Of a DNA stretch of 64,000 bases, positions 37,797 to 44,328 are shown one piece after another (the stretch's first letter is position 1; every line of letters starts with the position of its first letter). The notes beneath the pieces were generated by a model, which did not search any database, was not told the origin of the DNA, and saw only the letters and a program-made list of their open reading frames with translations. This DNA is from Hyphomicrobiales bacterium (GTDB lineage: Bacteria; Pseudomonadota; Alphaproteobacteria; Rhizobiales; Devosiaceae), in NCBI GenBank assembly GCA_004144345.1, contig SEEL01000001.1:62001-126000 (forward strand). Reading direction: 5' to 3'. The translations under genes were made by a program, and so were the position numbers.

Positions 37797-39880
37797 GCCG
37801 GCCTGATCCAGACGGTCGCGTCGTGGAACGCCACGCCGCCGAAGGGCGGCACCTGATCCGAGCCGATCAGCGTGTTGATGCCGTTGCCATTGCCATGCGA
37901 GCGGTTCATGTGGATGCCTTCGGCAATCAGCACGCCCTGCCGCAGGCCCTCGAAGATTTCGGCGGTCAGCTCGACCATGCCGCGATGATTGCCCAGCACC
38001 ACCTTCATGCCATCGGCAATGCCGTGCGCGGCCGCATCGTCGGCGCGGATGAGTACCGTCGGCCGGGGCTGGCGCTTCTGTGAGCCCGCCGTCTCGCTGA
38101 AGGATGAATTGAGGAAGCCGCGCGATGGGCTGGTGGCGAGGCGGAACGGCACGTCCGCGCCGGTCTTCTCGTTGATGTCCCAATAGTCGACCATTTCGGG
38201 CATCGCCGCGCGGTCGATGGTCCACAGGTACCCGTCGCGCGCCGCGATCTCGTCCCAGGCTGGCCGGAAGCGGAATTTGCCGTCGGCGAAGCGGAAGCCA
38301 TCGGCGAAGCGCGCCTTCTCGTCGGGCGGGTTGTTCTCGATGAAGCCGATCTTCTCGATCTCGTCGAGCTCGCCATAGTTGGATCGCTTCAGTGTCTCGG
38401 CCACCATCTGGCGGTCGGTCAAGTGCAGCGATTCATCCTCGACGCCAAGCCGGCGCAGCAGCTCGTTGACGACGTCGAAATTGGAACGGCATTCGCCGGG
38501 CGCCTCGACCAGCTTGGGGCCGATCAGCAGGCGGGTGTGGCCGCCGCGCCGGTAATAGTCGTTGTGCTCGAGGAACATCGTCGCGGGCAGCACGATATCG
38601 GCCATCTGCGCCGTCTCGGTCATGAACTGCTCATGGACGACCGTGAACAGATCCTCGCGTGCGAAACCGGCGCGGACGAGCCCCTGCTCCGGCGCGACAT
38701 TGACTGGGTTGGTGTTCTGGATGAACAGCGCCTTGACGGGAGTTGGTCCCTTCAGTGCCGTCGCATCGCCGGTCAGGATCTTGCCGATCTCGGACATATC
38801 GAGCTCGCGGCCGGCCTTGCCCATCGCCTTGCCTGTTATCAGCGACTTGTCGAGATGCCAGGTGCCCGAGTTTGAGTGGAATGCGCCCCCTGCCCGGTGC
38901 TGCCACGCGCCGGTGACAGCCGGAATGCAGAGCGCGGCATGCATGTTGGTCGAGCCGTTGCGCTGGCGCGTGAAGCCATAGCCCAAGCGGAAATAGGTTT
39001 TCGGCGTCGTGCCGACGAGCCGCGCGAAAGCTTCGATCTCGGCGACGGACACGCCCGTGATACCGGCTGCCCATTCGGGCGTCCGGCTCATGATGTGCGC
39101 CTCGACCGCCGCGTCGAAATCGGTCAGGCGGGCCAGATAGGCGCGGTCGGCCAGCCCGTCGCGCAGCAGCACATGCATTACCGCCAGTGCGAACGCGCCA
39201 TCCGAGCCCGGGCGCAGCAGGATCGGCATGTCCGCCTGATCCATGGTGGCGTTCTGGTAGATGTCGATGGCGACGATCTTGGCGCCATGTTCCTTCCGCG
39301 CGCGCATCGCATGGGTCATCACATTGACCTGCGTGTTCACCGCATTGGTGCCCCAGATCACCACGCAATCGGCCTCGGCCATCAGCTCGGGATTGGGTCC
39401 ACCCAACAGGCCCGTGCCGGCTAGATAGCCCGGCCATGCCGCACCGGTGCAGATCGTGTCATACTGGTCCGAATAGCCGCGCGCATGGCGCAGCCGGTTG
39501 ATGCCGTCGCGATGCACATGGCCCATCGTGCCGGCATAGAAATAGGGCCAGATCGCCTCGGGCCCGAACTCGGCCTCGATGCCCGTCCAGCGCGCGACGA
39601 TCTCGTCGAACGCCTCGTCCCACGAAATGCGCTGCCACTCGCCGCTGCCCTTCTTACCCACCCGCCGCATTGGATAGGTCAGCCGGTCGGCGTGGTGGAT
39701 GCGTTCGGCATAGCGCGCCACCTTCTCGCAGATCACGCCGGCCGTGTAGGGATCGTCCTTCGCCCCGCGGACGCGGCCAATCGTGTGCGCATCGATGATC
39801 TCGACATCGAGCGCACAGGTCGACGGACAATCATGCGGGCAGACCGATCGGGCGACCCTGCTGACGACGGGCTTGTTCAT
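37784..39880 (-). CDS. Molybdopterin-dependent oxidoreductase with [4Fe-4S] cluster
   Basis: A 698-residue molybdopterin oxidoreductase. The N-terminal cluster motif is C14-x3-C18-x3-C22-x28-C51 (CPHDCPSTC). A bis-MGD-type core follows, with WGTNAVNTQ and a C-terminal molydopterin dinucleotide-binding domain near residues 575-690. C145 in DTICTGAAW is a candidate molybdenum ligand. There is no twin-arginine signal, so it is probably cytoplasmic. The substrate is unknown. BisC/formate-dehydrogenase-like reductases are the nearest named types. Confidence 0.9.
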   Translation of the reverse strand: MNKPVVSRVARSVCPHDCPSTCALDVEIIDAHTIGRVRGAKDDPYTAGVICEKVARYAERIHHADRLTYPMRRVGKKGSGEWQRISWDEAFDEIVARWTGIEAEFGPEAIWPYFYAGTMGHVHRDGINRLRHARGYSDQYDTICTGAAWPGYLAGTGLLGGPNPELMAEADCVVIWGTNAVNTQVNVMTHAMRARKEHGAKIVAIDIYQNATMDQADMPILLRPGSDGAFALAVMHVLLRDGLADRAYLARLTDFDAAVEAHIMSRTPEWAAGITGVSVAEIEAFARLVGTTPKTYFRLGYGFTRQRNGSTNMHAALCIPAVTGAWQHRAGGAFHSNSGTWHLDKSLITGKAMGKAGRELDMSEIGKILTGDATALKGPTPVKALFIQNTNPVNVAPEQGLVRAGFAREDLFTVVHEQFMTETAQMADIVLPATMFLEHNDYYRRGGHTRLLIGPKLVEAPGECRSNFDVVNELLRRLGVEDESLHLTDRQMVAETLKRSNYGELDEIEKIGFIENNPPDEKARFADGFRFADGKFRFRPAWDEIAARDGYLWTIDRAAMPEMVDYWDINEKTGADVPFRLATSPSRGFLNSSFSETAGSQKRQPRPTVLIRADDAAAHGIADGMKVVLGNHRGMVELTAEIFEGLRQGVLIAEGIHMNRSHGNGNGINTLIGSDQVPPFGGVAFHDATVWIRPAQAA

Positions 39881-39928
39881 GGCTCAGGCGTAGCGCCGCG
39901 CCGGACGGCGCGCAAGCCTGGGTAGAGA

Positions 39929-41035
39929 CTAGGCCTTGGCGGCCAGGCGCTCGCGCTCGGCCTCGACCCGCCGGATCATCAGGTCCTTGCGGAGCATGCG
40001 CAGCCCCCGGGCGATACCCCTTCCCAGCGCGCTCCAGATCGAGTGCTCACGCTTGGGACGGCTCTGCAACAGGGCGCTGGCGCGCTGCAGCGGGTGCCAG
40101 CGCGACGCCGAAATCAGCCTAGCAAGCGGCTCCTTCGGCACCGGCACTTCCAGCGGGCCGGCCAGATAAGACAGTGCGATTGCCGCGTGGGACGACGTGC
40201 CCCGCTGCCGGGCAAGCTCGATGAACAGCGGCCAGTCCACTTCCCCGCCCTGCACCAGCAGCGCGCTATCGACCAGCCAGTCGCTGTTTTCGTGCCCGCC
40301 AATGCCGCCATGGGCAATCGCCATCAGCAGGCGGTCGGTGGCCGAGGGAACGAAGACGTCGTGACCGAAAAATCTGTGCTTGGTGGCCCGGGCCCACAGC
40401 CCGTCCGGCGTCACGTCGGACAGCAGCAATTGGTGATAGGGGTACTTATGGAGGTCGAGTTCGTCCTCCTTGCCACGCGTCAGATTGGCGCCGATGAGGC
40501 GACCGAGGTTGGGCCGGAAGCCCACCACATATTTCCAGCCGGCCGCCTCGATGGCGTCCCAGGTCCGCACATATTCCTGCGGCCGCACCAGCAGGTCGAG
40601 TTCCGCCGCATAGCGTCCGCGCAAATCGGAGATGTCGAGCGCCGATCGTGCCGCGCCCTTGAACACCATCACATCGACGCCGGCTTGCTCGATCGCGGCC
40701 AGTGCCGGTTCGGCGGCTTTGAGCGCCACCATGCACTGGCTCCAAAGCTTGCGCTCGACGCCCTTCAACCGCGCCCGGTCCACCGCCGGCAAAATGCTCT
40801 CCGGCATGCGATAGGAAATGGCCACCAGCAGGCGCTGCGTCGCCATATAGGCATTCTCGAATGGAACGGTCTTCTGCCACTCATCATAGGCTGCGGCGGC
40901 CTTGGCGAGATCCGGCATGATCGCCGCGCGGAGCAGCAGGTCGCGCTCGCCCGTCGGCCATGCCCAGGCGAGTGTGGGGAACGGCCCGCGCGGCGTTGTC
41001 GGCTTCAGCTTGGCAAGCTGCTCGCGGATCGTCAT
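39929..41035 (-). CDS. Nucleotidyltransferase-fold protein (PF14907-type) of the PqqD/HprK-like cluster
   Basis: A 368-residue protein of the uncharacterised nucleotidyltransferase family. The core reads VMVFKGAARSALD (K126-G127) followed by RGRYAAELDLLV (E145, D147). The usual D-x-D metal pair is replaced by E-x-D. Relatives occur next to HprK-like kinases in RiPP and polysaccharide clusters; in one lasso-peptide system a related protein attaches hexose to a phosphorylated residue. It is the last gene of the leftward cluster and overlaps the preceding glycosyltransferase gene by four bases. Confidence 0.8.
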   Translation of the reverse strand: MTIREQLAKLKPTTPRGPFPTLAWAWPTGERDLLLRAAIMPDLAKAAAAYDEWQKTVPFENAYMATQRLLVAISYRMPESILPAVDRARLKGVERKLWSQCMVALKAAEPALAAIEQAGVDVMVFKGAARSALDISDLRGRYAAELDLLVRPQEYVRTWDAIEAAGWKYVVGFRPNLGRLIGANLTRGKEDELDLHKYPYHQLLLSDVTPDGLWARATKHRFFGHDVFVPSATDRLLMAIAHGGIGGHENSDWLVDSALLVQGGEVDWPLFIELARQRGTSSHAAIALSYLAGPLEVPVPKEPLARLISASRWHPLQRASALLQSRPKREHSIWSALGRGIARGLRMLRKDLMIRRVEAERERLAAKA

Positions 41036-41706
41036 TTCTCATCCTTCGCGGCCGCGCGCCGCCGCAACAGGGCAGCACGGGCAACGCTCAGATATCCAGC
41101 CGCCACATTGCTCGCGCCCTTGGCGGTCATGCTCGCGGCGTGCGCCCGGCGCAGGGTAACGAGCTCTGGCAGGACGATCATGCGATGCCCACCCTCGCGC
41201 ACGCGCGCCAGCCAATCCACCATGTCGCCAGCGCCGGGCGGATCGATGATCGGTCCCGTCGCAAGGGCCACCGCCGTGCGGATCACCATGGTCGAGCGGC
41301 TCAGCCCGTCATAGGCCGCCGCAGGGTCCGCGTTCGCGGGATCGTCGCGGAAGTTGGTCATGCGCCCGAACAGGCCGGCGATATCCGCCGTCATCGCGGC
41401 GAGCTGGCGTTCCACCTTATCGGCGAGCCAGAGGTCGTCGGCGTCGAGCGTCGCGATGATCCCGTTCCTTACGGCAGCAAATCCTGTCGTCGTTGCCTTG
41501 CCCGGACCGCCATTGGCCTGCCGGATCACCTCGACGCCAGCAATGCTCCCGGCGATTTCGGCCGTGTCGTCGGACGAGCCGTCGTCCACCACAATGATCT
41601 GCGACGGCGGCAGGGTCTGCGCCATGACGGAGGCAAGCGTTTCGCGAATAAAGGCCGCCGCATTGTAGGCGGGAATGACGACGGAATAGGCTTCAGTCAT
41701 CGCCAT
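41032..41706 (-). CDS. Family 2 glycosyltransferase (first of two)
   Basis: A 224-residue GT-A glycosyltransferase. The nucleotide-sugar fold starts YSVVIPAYNAAAFIRETL, with VVDDGSSDDT and the metal motif in ATLDADDLW. It has no membrane helix and is shorter than many GT2 proteins. The start may be the ATG at 41706 or the one at 41700. It overlaps both neighbours, so it is translationally coupled within the cluster. It probably adds a sugar to the product of the cluster. Confidence 0.88.
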   Translation of the reverse strand: MAMTEAYSVVIPAYNAAAFIRETLASVMAQTLPPSQIIVVDDGSSDDTAEIAGSIAGVEVIRQANGGPGKATTTGFAAVRNGIIATLDADDLWLADKVERQLAAMTADIAGLFGRMTNFRDDPANADPAAAYDGLSRSTMVIRTAVALATGPIIDPPGAGDMVDWLARVREGGHRMIVLPELVTLRRAHAASMTAKGASNVAAGYLSVARAALLRRRAAAKDEK

Positions 41707-42460
41707 GCCACCAGTCTATGCCCCCGAGCGTTTCGCTCCCGTCGAAGAAGCCAGCGGGGACGCCCGGTGCATTCGTGGCGCGCCGCCGACGGATCGACAT
41801 CAGCGTCGCACGCGCAAAATCACGACGCGCGGTCGCGGTGTCGCGGCTGATATTGCCGTTGTGCCGACGATAGAAATAGCACAGGTCATCGACGAGCTTC
41901 ACGTTCGGCGACAGTTCCAGGGCACGGAAGATGTAGTCGGTGTCTTCGGCCTGGGCGAAGGCATCGTCGAATTTACCAATGCGCTGGACGAGCGGCAGGC
42001 GGGCGAGCAGCGTCCCCAGATGGATGCCACGTACTCTGGCCGTCAACGCCGATGCTACCGGCGCCAGGTCATCGCCAATCGCTCCCCGGAACACCTGCAT
42101 GTAGCCGTAATGCATGTCGAGGTCCGGATCCTCCGCGAACCATCGTATGTCCCGAGCGAAGCGCCCTGCCGGTGAGAGGTCGTCGGAGTCGAGCGTCGTC
42201 ACGAGATCAGTATCCGGCGCCAAGGCATCGAGCAGCATGTTGCGCGTGCGCGTGATGCCCTGGTTAGGCGTCTCGATGAGCCTGATCTCCGGCGCCTCGG
42301 CGGCAATGCGTCGGACCACATCGCCGGTGCCATCGGTCGAGCCGTCATTGACGACGATAATATCGAGCTTGGCGTCGCCGCGCTGCCGCAACAGCGAGCC
42401 GAGCGAATAGTCGAGCGTCGCTGCCGCGTTGTAGGCGGCCATCATCACCGCGACTTTCAT
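41693..42460 (-). CDS. Family 2 glycosyltransferase (second of two)
   Basis: A 255-residue GT2 enzyme: MKVAVMMAAYNAAATLDYSL, VVNDGSTDGTG, the metal motif in TTLDSDDLS, and a C-terminal AEDTDYIFRAL acceptor-site segment. It overlaps the HprK-like gene by four bases and the other GT2 gene by several. The two transferases are only distantly similar, so they probably add different sugars or act at successive steps. Confidence 0.88.
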   Translation of the reverse strand: MKVAVMMAAYNAAATLDYSLGSLLRQRGDAKLDIIVVNDGSTDGTGDVVRRIAAEAPEIRLIETPNQGITRTRNMLLDALAPDTDLVTTLDSDDLSPAGRFARDIRWFAEDPDLDMHYGYMQVFRGAIGDDLAPVASALTARVRGIHLGTLLARLPLVQRIGKFDDAFAQAEDTDYIFRALELSPNVKLVDDLCYFYRRHNGNISRDTATARRDFARATLMSIRRRRATNAPGVPAGFFDGSETLGGIDWWHGDD

Positions 42461-43518
42461 GACCGGGGCTCCGCGATGAACGTAGCAATAGCGTCGGCGA
42501 TCTCTGACGGGTCGGTGCTGAGATCGAGGTAATAGGCCGGCAAGCGGCGGGCGATTTCGGCGGTGAAGCCGAGCCCCTCGCGCCAGCCACCTGGCAATTG
42601 CTGCAGATTGCTCGGCGCCAGACCGATCATGGCAGCGCGCGCCGGCGCCCTGGTGAAGGTCGAGCGCGCTTGGTGCGCGATACGGGGCAAGAGGATCGCC
42701 TGCAGATCGATCTGCCGGGCACGGCGGCCACGTTCCAGCACTTCAAAATCGAACTCGTACTTGTTCTGCCAATTGGGCTCGCCAAGCCCGAATTTCGCGG
42801 CATCGATCCCGGTGCGGGCTAGCCCTTTGGCGTCCTGCTTCATCAGCTTGATGACGGGGTAAGCGCGCACGCCCGCCTCGGTCAGTTGCATGGCCACGTA
42901 GTCGTCGCCGACGCTCTCGAGCCCACCCATGACGCCCGCCAATGATGTGCCCGATTTTCCCGAGCCGCCCGCGCCGATCAGCATGATGCCGCGGCCGTCG
43001 ACGGCCAGGGTGCCGGCATGGATCAGGCGCCAGCCCAGCCGCTGGTATCCCCAATGGGCGAAATTGCGCAGCGGGAACGACGCCACCCAGGGCGGAAAGG
43101 CGCCGGGGCGCTTCTGTGCTTCGACGCCCTCGCCCGTTGCCGGGTCGAAGAACTGCCACAGGTAGTTGTCGACGTCGAAGGCGCCCTCGATGCCGCCGGG
43201 CGCGAGGCCAGTGGCCAGCGGCGCAATGCCAAAATCGGTTTCGGCCCACATAGCGCGCGGCACGTCGGGGCGCGTCTCGTGGTCGAAAATGGAGACGGCC
43301 AGCGATTGCTGCTGGCCATCCGCGTAAGCCGGATCATTGACGACTGCGCGCCTGCACAGATCGGCATAGCCCGGCGTCAGGAAGCTGGCGTCGATGCGGA
43401 TGCCCGGCAGGCTGAAGGCGATCATCTCACCCTGCCCGCGCAGGGCCCGCCCACGCGCGATGAGGTCGCGCGCGACAATGTGGGCATTGCTGCTGTCGAG
43501 GCTGGCGGTGTCGCCCAC
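42457..43518 (-). CDS. HprK-like P-loop serine kinase
   Basis: A 353-residue protein with GTG start. The C-terminal half resembles the HPr kinase/PEP carboxykinase fold: HAGTLAVDGRGIMLIGAGG leads into the P-loop GAGGSGKSG at 182-190, with the acidic segment SVGDDYV at 202-208. The N-terminal 160 residues resemble the domain found in HPr-rel and lasso-peptide-associated kinases. Such kinases phosphorylate serine in a peptide or small protein. It lies three bases after the PqqD-like gene, the expected partner that would bind and present a substrate. Confidence 0.82.
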   Translation of the reverse strand: MGDTASLDSSNAHIVARDLIARGRALRGQGEMIAFSLPGIRIDASFLTPGYADLCRRAVVNDPAYADGQQQSLAVSIFDHETRPDVPRAMWAETDFGIAPLATGLAPGGIEGAFDVDNYLWQFFDPATGEGVEAQKRPGAFPPWVASFPLRNFAHWGYQRLGWRLIHAGTLAVDGRGIMLIGAGGSGKSGTSLAGVMGGLESVGDDYVAMQLTEAGVRAYPVIKLMKQDAKGLARTGIDAAKFGLGEPNWQNKYEFDFEVLERGRRARQIDLQAILLPRIAHQARSTFTRAPARAAMIGLAPSNLQQLPGGWREGLGFTAEIARRLPAYYLDLSTDPSEIADAIATFIAEPRS

Positions 43519-43521
43519 CGA

Positions 43522-43944
43522 TCAGTCGTCCTGCGGCCGGCGCGGCCAACCGGCCCCCTGGTCCACATCGTGGATCGGGTCGGCAACCAGCAGATCGGCA
43601 AGGTCGTCGTAGACTTCGACCGTAAACGGACCACCCGACGCGGCCACCGCCTGCGCCGTGGCCTCCGACGGCGTCGCCGCCGTCGCTTCGGCAACGATCA
43701 GCGTGTGCGCCACCAGTGCGCCAACGAGGCTTTCGATCGTTCCCCGGCGCGTGTCGCCCGCGGGAAGGCCGGCGGTCATCGACTCGATGGAATGTCCGTC
43801 CTGCAGCGCACGCCACACGACGCCGGCGCCATCCGCCAGGCTGAAATACTTGCCGCTCTCGAGATCCAGAACGACGAACTCGCCGTCAAAGTCCTCGGAA
43901 GCGACGTTGCTGTCGCGGGGCCGGAAGGTGTCGGTCAGTTGCAT
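43522..43944 (-). CDS. PqqD-family peptide-binding protein
   Basis: A 140-residue protein whose first 90 residues form a PqqD/RiPP-recognition-type winged helix: VVLDLESGKYFSLADGAGVV is the strand-turn motif and the helical part follows to about residue 85. The rest is an alanine-rich tail. The ATG at 43944 is preferred; a TTG twelve bases upstream is possible. PqqD proteins chaperone a leader peptide to modifying enzymes. Here it would recruit a substrate to the kinase. Confidence 0.82.
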   Translation of the reverse strand: MQLTDTFRPRDSNVASEDFDGEFVVLDLESGKYFSLADGAGVVWRALQDGHSIESMTAGLPAGDTRRGTIESLVGALVAHTLIVAEATAATPSEATAQAVAASGGPFTVEVYDDLADLLVADPIHDVDQGAGWPRRPQDD

Positions 43945-44023
43945 GGATTCTGCCAAAGCGAGTGATTTCCCGCTTCAAACACGAACTGGCGACACCGTTC
44001 AACCGAATACTCGGCTTGTTGCC

Positions 44024-44212
44024 CTATTCCGCGCGAATGCGGGCGAGTTCGAAGTTGAACAGCCGCAGCGACAGATAGATGGCGAAGGCGAAGGAGGTGA
44101 TCCCCATGATGCTGTTGACCGGCAGCAGGGCGAAGAACGGCAACTGCTTGGCAATGAGGAGAAGGAGGAGAAGCGCAAGAACTGAGGCGACTTCGGACAC
44201 ACGAACGGGCAT
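44024..44212 (-). CDS. Small two-helix membrane protein, hypothetical
   Basis: A 62-residue protein (ATG at 44212, AAAGG upstream in the loop of a 6-bp hairpin at 44213-44232). Two hydrophobic stretches, VASVLALLLLLLIA and MGITSFAFAIYL, span the membrane, and the C-terminus is basic and acidic (FNFELARIRAE). It lies 79 bases upstream of the PqqD-like gene on the same strand, so it may belong to the cluster. No family recognised. It does not resemble a modified precursor peptide. Confidence 0.55.
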   Translation of the reverse strand: MPVRVSEVASVLALLLLLLIAKQLPFFALLPVNSIMGITSFAFAIYLSLRLFNFELARIRAE

Positions 44213-44328
44213 GGTTTGCCTTTCAACAAACCGCTTTGGCCGACGCTCCGCCATTGCGAGGGGTTGCTCCTGGAGGCGCGAAAATCATTCGCGCCCGCTT
44301 ATGCTTAAGCGAAAGCCCAAAAGGTTCC

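Follow-up and report, generated by a model that had tools for sequence, protein, structure and literature searches.

A conserved C-terminal tail on a PqqD-like protein recurs with kinase, glycosyltransferase and PF14907 genes across bacterial phyla

Gene content and boundaries of the locus

This analysis concerns a five-gene cassette in a 64,000-nucleotide stretch of a Hyphomicrobiales genome (assembly GCA_004144345.1, contig SEEL01000001.1, positions 62,001 to 126,000; hereafter the window), in which a PqqD-like protein with a conserved C-terminal tail is encoded next to a P-loop kinase, two family 2 glycosyltransferases (GT2) and a nucleotidyltransferase-like protein of the family PF14907. 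The five open reading frames (ORFs) lie at 39929-43956 on the minus strand; the PqqD-like protein is expected to adopt the fold of a recognition element (RRE) for ribosomally synthesised and post-translationally modified peptides (RiPPs). The features are, in window positions:

43525-43956 (stop codon 43522-43524), minus strand: PqqD-like protein with fused C-terminal tail (Pfam PqqD; RRE fold expected)
43525-43635, minus strand: conserved tail, residues 108-144 (alignment columns)
43609-43620, minus strand: predicted tail strand VEVY, residues 113-116, at the place of the leader-like [FYW]xxPx[LVIF] (DSSP on the AlphaFold model)
43543-43581, minus strand: DPIHDVDQGAGWP, residues 126-138, the best-conserved tail piece in the main subfamily
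42457-43518, minus strand: HprK/PEPCK-like P-loop kinase, 353 amino acids (aa), GTG start
41693-42460, minus strand: GT2 glycosyltransferase, acidic DxDD motif present (Pfam, alignment)
41032-41706, minus strand: GT2 glycosyltransferase, acidic DxDD motif present (Pfam, alignment)
39929-41035, minus strand: PF14907 nucleotidyltransferase-like protein, E145-x-D147 (Pfam, alignment)
39916-44026, no strand: 4,111-bp insertion relative to the same-genus genome G008, containing exactly the five genes

The PqqD-like ORF (43522-43956) comprises 144 aa when counted from a TTG codon, an ATG lying 12 nt further in. The kinase gene starts 3 nt past the PqqD stop codon in the same frame, and the subsequent genes overlap by 4, 14 and 4 nt. 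Pfam scores exceeded the cut-offs for the PqqD-like protein (PF05402, 27.3 bits; cut-off 23.4), which is thereby assigned to the RRE-type proteins, for the two GT2 proteins (PF00535, 65.9 and 105.5 bits; cut-off 23.3) and for the nucleotidyltransferase-like protein (PF14907, 80 bits; cut-off 31.2).

The flanking core genes are 6 bp apart at the DNA level in G008 as compared to 4,111 bp in the window, and the five genes therefore behave as a single inserted unit. An earlier reading of this DNA (the original prediction) had already described five leftward genes as one unit, and this description stands: all ORFs lie at the positions claimed, the gene set recurs elsewhere and the insertion of 4.1 kb is clean. 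The stretch 43957-44212, which had been counted as part of the cluster, does not belong to it, as it runs into a 76-aa ORF (44024-44254) outside the set that same-genus relatives also have; in at least four of these relatives the cassette is missing and the 76-aa ORF directly adjoins the core gene that follows.

Sequence, spread and conservation of the tail

The tail consists of the last 37 residues of the PqqD protein, has the family consensus [FYW]xxPxLxxYTDMQ[DE]LLLLDPIHEVDExGWP and recurs in relatives whose PqqD domain has diverged. Public genome contigs were scanned with the tail alignment, yielding 250 pattern matches and 177 confirmed relatives, from which 80 loci were kept. The tail was located on a PqqD-like ORF in all 80 (80/80). 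At locus L127 (9641-12055) the tail lies inside an ORF of 800 aa whose end is a kinase domain; by eye, this ORF holds three PqqD-like stretches, the full tail on the first only, and then the kinase domain. According to the names of the records the 80 loci represent at least 15 phyla (among them Pseudomonadota, Desulfobacterota-type, Cyanobacteria, Bacteroidetes, Planctomycetes, Acidobacteria, Chloroflexi, Actinomycetota, Ignavibacteria, Nitrospirota, Verrucomicrobia, Lentisphaerae, Gemmatimonadota, Hydrogenedentota, Bipolaricaulota and Bacillota), of which single assignments may be wrong because most records are metagenome-assembled genomes.

Two patterns lying within the tail were used to pick the 80 loci, and tblastn with the tail as query to confirm them, so tail conservation among them is biased. 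The pattern origin was therefore considered separately: 38 loci were found by the first pattern only, 23 by the second only and 19 by both. The unselected second half of the 38 first-pattern-only tails contained P-x-H in 38/38 and GW in 36/38, and the unselected first half of the 23 second-pattern-only tails contained D-[ML] in 23/23; the tblastn tail query adds some bias to these counts.

Among a separate set of 61 genomes, a tailed PqqD was present in the window's own genome, in two of 18 same-genus genomes (G002 and G012, two each) and in two further same-family genomes (G026 and G019, the tail of the latter without GWP). Variant tails read DIVHDT..GWP (L188) or end in LALDPPLP.. with neither His nor Trp (L185, L186 and L187, from G227, G324 and G401). 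No fitting model was returned when 40 tails were scanned with Pfam and NCBIfam, a profile of nine tails matched solved structures at chance level only (best E-value 0.38), and no description of the tail or cassette was found in the open-access literature, subscription papers being mostly outside that search.

Composition of the cassette across loci

Profiles grown from the kinase, GT2 and PF14907 proteins of the window were run over the ORFs of 87 loci (the 80 kept, six relatives and the window), and matched in 78, 81 and 69 of them, respectively; within 9 kb of the tail the corresponding numbers were 78, 81 and 67. All three families were present in 62/87 loci; of the 68 loci with 5 kb or more of downstream sequence, 57 had all three. 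In 59/87 loci the kinase domain started at most 600 nt downstream, and the same-strand order kinase, GT2, ..., PF14907 was kept in 37/87. Recurrence of the gene set in dozens of distant genomes is beyond chance. The data show that the tail is conserved and accompanies kinase, GT2 and PF14907 genes, and that insertion involves all five genes together. That tail and gene set form a unit is firmly established; what this unit does we infer below.

An ABC-type transporter cluster was detected in 36/87 loci and a GT4-type cluster in 33/87, with one representative of each confirmed by Pfam; a profile-based ABC count of 38/87 is an upper bound, the window's own match being a distant ABC protein outside the cassette. 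Fusions of the kinase with one or two GT2 domains occur in L064 (14456-16255) and L115 (11942-14497). A plasmid of Crinalium epipsammum carries in a row genes for a PqqD family protein, a nucleotidyltransferase family protein, an HPr kinase, an FkbM methyltransferase and glycosyltransferases, and its tail reads FTDMEDLLLLDPIHEVDVEAGWP; this was the one plasmid retrieved with two relatives as queries, the window PqqD giving no match. The modules co-diverge (r 0.46-0.66 over 59 loci). In a mirror-tree comparison no single partner of the tail stood out (partial r: RRE 0.25, kinase 0.18, GT2 0.12, PF14907 0.11).

Independent co-occurrence of tail and kinase

Tail and kinase were also searched for separately in two genome samples, scoring only the best candidates per genome (up to 19 for the tail in the phylum sample, 10 for PqqD in the class sample and 5 for the kinase in both), so that misses are possible. 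Of the 398 genomes in the phylum sample, at least six matched the tail profile at E<1e-10 (next best 0.00275) and at least six matched the kinase profile at E<=1e-20, and these were the same six (G000, G542, G484, G488, G769 and G547); the kinase adjoins the tail on the same strand in 6/6. One of them is the window's own genome, and G484, G488 and G547 belong to one genus. The class sample contained at least seven full-length kinase places (E<1e-30) in 6/372 genomes, all seven within 1.3 kb of a PqqD place. The reverse relation was looser: 11 PqqD places reached model position 125 or beyond, eight of them with a kinase beside. The eighth kinase-paired place is in G444; G401 had no kinase in 20 kb, and for G067 and the second PqqD place of G242 no kinase was found at E<1e-30.

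Kinase and PF14907 protein

The window kinase scores below the Pfam cut-off (Hpr_kinase_C, 20.3 vs. 33.3 bits) and under all NCBIfam cut-offs. It retains H167, a GxGGSGKS P-loop, D205-D206 and K253, which are conserved across the family (His 79/79, the Asp pair 76/79 and 77/79, Lys 71/79). Among solved structures, its sequence profile comes closest to HPr kinases (1ko7, 8.5e-5), and both AlphaFold models described below are structurally nearest to phosphoenolpyruvate carboxykinase (PEPCK). The PF14907 protein of the window has Glu at position 145, the first place of the conserved D-x-D, where 63/67 have Asp, and retains D147.

Predicted structure and leader likeness of the tail

For structure prediction with AlphaFold the PqqD and kinase genes were read as one chain, with the natural stop read as Ser. 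The window model (mean predicted local distance difference test score, pLDDT, 86.3; predicted template modelling score, pTM, 0.73) has a tail strand at residues 113-116, with a mean pLDDT of 81 for block 111-120 and means of 42-52 for blocks within 121-150. The model of L050 from Desulfuromonas (pLDDT 90.7, pTM 0.87) has the strand at 116-119, with a mean of 95 for block 111-120 and means of 46-55 within 121-160.

The predicted strand coincides with a leader-like motif: [FYW]xxPx[hydrophobic] at fixed spacing before the D[ML] pair was present in 77/87 tails, and in 82 of the wider set of 97. A published RRE-type leader motif is [Y/W]xxPx[L/V/I/F/A] (section 6 of PMC13381572), and on sequence grounds the first half of the tail resembles leader motifs bound by RREs. 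RREs are treated in PMC12710340 and PMC7470986, the latter mentioning RRE-glycosyltransferase fusions. PF05402 matched 66 of 106 scanned entries, 67 of which contained the PqqD protein, and one relative matched TbiB1 at 4.7e-10.

Comparison with known systems

The original prediction had likened the gene set to kinase and nucleotidyltransferase tailoring genes of lasso peptides, and this likeness is borne out. According to PMC9266682, lasso clusters of the paeninodin/pseudomycoidin type encode PqqD/B1, an HprK-like kinase and a PF14907 protein as the cassette does, and their enzymes PsmK and PsmN are close published relatives of the cassette enzymes. The cassette differs from these clusters in having no cyclase or B2 match and no free precursor in the 87 loci, and in its kinase subfamily. 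A phmmer search with the lasso cyclase and B2 of the window's own genome gave no match at E<=1e-3 among ORFs of at least 70 aa in the 87 loci (no separate positive control was included). The earlier statement that no lasso cyclase or precursor lies nearby stands, and a lasso peptide pathway was rejected, no cyclase, B2 or free precursor with an RRE-binding leader having been found in the 87 loci.

Contig 77 of the same genome carries a separate lasso cluster (L195, G000:C77:72000-91900) beside a polysaccharide export gene. Its precursor, MKKRTYSTPRLTAHGSVEKITKG.., exceeded the cut-offs of the NCBIfam lasso leader and lasso_cyano models, its B2 was above and its cyclase-like protein below cut-off (409 vs. 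525 bits), and it also encodes a plain 91-aa PqqD (below cut-off) that has no tail, together with an HprK-like kinase and a PF14907 protein. This cluster therefore combines a free precursor with a plain PqqD, whereas the cassette has the fused tail; with the same profile its kinase scored 62 bits as compared to 163 to 354 for cassette kinases. When lasso-like precursors were sought beside plain PqqD genes of the other fetched loci, only L195 gave one.

Clusters for linear polyphosphorylated peptides (LPP) comprise an RRE, an HprK-like kinase, a nucleoside triphosphate (NTP) transferase and often an MsbA-like exporter, lack a macrolactam cyclase and often lie in glycan loci, as does the cassette (PMC13381572). 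A discrete RRE, an HprK-like kinase and an NTP transferase occur together in the cassette too, its RRE being PqqD-like and extended by the tail. LPP clusters have free precursors with a conserved N-terminal motif (YxxPxVLxHQxIxFETxxS) and a SipW-like peptidase (PMC13381572); the cassette loci have no such free precursor, their peptide being fused to the RRE, and Pfam detected no SipW-like SpI peptidase among the five window genes, relatives not having been searched for one. Unlike in LPP clusters, GT2 genes belong to the core of the cassette. LppK phosphorylates serine and accepts neither Thr nor Tyr (section 7 of PMC13381572), whereas the tail, the only peptide found in the cassette, has no conserved serine.

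In the HPr-rel-A system an HprK-related kinase is paired with a PqqD-type chaperone, as judged by the names of the models TIGR04352 and TIGR04353, and the same pairing is found here. Membership was rejected because the window kinase scored 21.4 bits against a TIGR04352 cut-off of 200; TIGR04353 matched at E<=0.001 in only 7 of the 106 scanned entries. The SynChlorMet cassette (ScmC/ScmD) and other PqqD-type peptide chaperones gave weak PqqD and kinase profile matches, below the cut-offs shown.

Free peptide or tail as substrate

No free short ORF was common to more than 4 of the 87 loci. Among 10,377 small ORFs of these loci (up to 110 aa) the leader motif occurred 310 times as compared to 308.9 in shuffled sequences, and its strict form 0 times (0-6 in shuffles). 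A free precursor peptide was rejected on this basis. The original prediction had proposed an unknown small protein or peptide partner and a short conserved reading frame in or near the genes; such a conserved peptide is indeed present with them, as the C-terminal tail of the PqqD protein rather than as a free product.

Phosphorylation of the peptide, which had also been proposed, found no support. Tail position 117 was Thr in 47, Ser in 18 and Asp in 12 of 87 tails, and a Ser or Thr followed the Tyr/Phe at varying places in 91/97 tails. Six of 97 (L063, L098, the window, L185, L186 and L194) had no Ser or Thr past the strand, and a kinase gene lies near all six. Since no Ser/Thr is conserved and six tails have none beside a kinase, there is no support for Ser/Thr phosphorylation as a general feature of the tail, and the tail as Ser/Thr phosphoacceptor was set aside.

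Interpretation

The best reading of the cassette, to which we give an even chance of being right, is a self-loaded recognition element that organises a phosphorylation-glycosylation pathway related to the lasso and LPP pathways. As suggested by the motif and the models, the PqqD-like protein would be an RRE whose groove is filled in cis by the leader-like strand of its own tail, so that a separate precursor would not be needed. The remaining tail (DMQELLLLDPIHEVDExGWP) would project outwards, serving as a site of docking or presentation to the kinase, the GT2 proteins and the PF14907 protein. By analogy with PsmK/PsmN and LppK, these enzymes may together add phosphate and sugars to an acceptor, which could be the tail, another part of the PqqD protein or another molecule.

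Several observations weigh against this reading. The strict [Y/W] form of the leader motif occurred in only 25/97 tails, and the exact motif was absent from 15/97, including the window's own. NCBIfam lasso-leader models matched none of 40 tails, and the profile comparison of the own-genome lasso leader with the tail did not reach significance, since equally good scores came from 349 of 6,126 small ORFs and from 894 of 5,000 shuffled sequences; homology of tail and lasso leader was therefore rejected at the profile level, and only a motif-level likeness is claimed. While the leader-like part is placed in the predicted models, the DPIHEV..GWP part (pLDDT 42-55) is unplaced. Finally, a kinase was absent within 9 kb in 9/87 loci; in three of these (L078, L099 and L106) the sequence extends for 9.5 kb or more on both sides, and in L068 for 6 kb or more. 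L187 has the tail, GT2 and PF14907 genes with no kinase in 20 kb. The cassettes of L185-L187 carry two PF14907 genes each, and L187 is the one of the three that has no kinase in that range.

A bolder and rather doubtful reading would make the cassette a pan-bacterial class of ribosomal glycoconjugate pathway with recognition element and peptide in one protein. The tail, near-invariant across phyla by analogy with the precursors of pyrroloquinoline quinone and mycofactocin, would serve as a genetically tethered carrier, and the kinase, GT2 and PF14907 enzymes would build a phosphate-linked glycan on it or next to it.

We consider it unlikely that the tail is a fused precursor, that is, a RiPP leader and core phosphorylated and glycosylated while tethered to its own RRE and afterwards either retained to carry a glycan or released by cleavage and exported. 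Conservation of the tail end where it was not selected (P-x-H 38/38, GW 36/38), the kinase and PF14907 relatives that act on peptides, the missing free precursor and the ABC-exporter cluster in 36/87 loci are consistent with it. It is opposed by the lack of a conserved Ser, Thr or Tyr in the tail, by the 6/97 tails that have no Ser/Thr past the strand and yet a kinase nearby, by the three DPPLP.. tails of one subfamily, two of which lack Ser/Thr there, and by the restriction of LppK to Ser (PMC13381572, section 7).

An ordinary polysaccharide locus, in which the genes would make or regulate capsule or exopolysaccharide and the PqqD-kinase pair would regulate the glycosyltransferases, appears decidedly unlikely. 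Additional GT4-type, GT2 and ABC transporter genes are found in many relatives, the FkbM methyltransferase and others accompany the Crinalium plasmid copy, and capsule loci also house LPP and paeninodin clusters (PMC13381572). However, the window insertion of five genes contains no polymerase, flippase or export gene, and a pure glycan pathway leaves an RRE with a conserved peptide tail unexplained. A larger polysaccharide locus without a small protein partner, which would have spoken against the original prediction, is thus only partly seen, since such relatives retain the tail.

That a distant or highly variable free precursor displaces the tail, which would act as a pseudo-leader shutting the RRE until then, is very improbable. 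In its favour are the likeness of the tail to leaders, the small size and variability that RiPP precursors can show, and a true lasso precursor on another contig of this genome. Against it, the leader motif is not in excess among the small ORFs of the 87 loci and the window insertion has no extra gene.

Returning to the self-loaded recognition element, RiPP discovery usually relies on free precursors encoded close to a recognition element and would miss a peptide fused to it, and a cassette with such a fused conserved peptide occurs in many phyla. Should the tail indeed be served by the kinase and the sugar enzymes, the cassette would offer a tractable test system for the PF14907 family and indicate a common, undescribed bacterial glycoconjugate or signal.

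The insertion site in relatives

The 76-aa ORF and the oxidoreductase gene flank a variable spot (window 39880-44254), which is empty or occupied by other genes depending on the relative. Measured between protein matches, the gap is 41 bp in G008, 162 bp in G010, 119 bp in G001, 57 bp in G002 and 4,146 bp in the window. The cassette profiles gave no match at the sites fetched from eight relatives. In G006 and G007 the two flanking genes are on separate contigs, G004 has about 0.7 kb at the site, and G005, G011, G003 and G009 have 1.3 to 4.3 kb of different sequence there, the proteins encoded in G011 and G003 looking by eye like calcium-binding repeat proteins.

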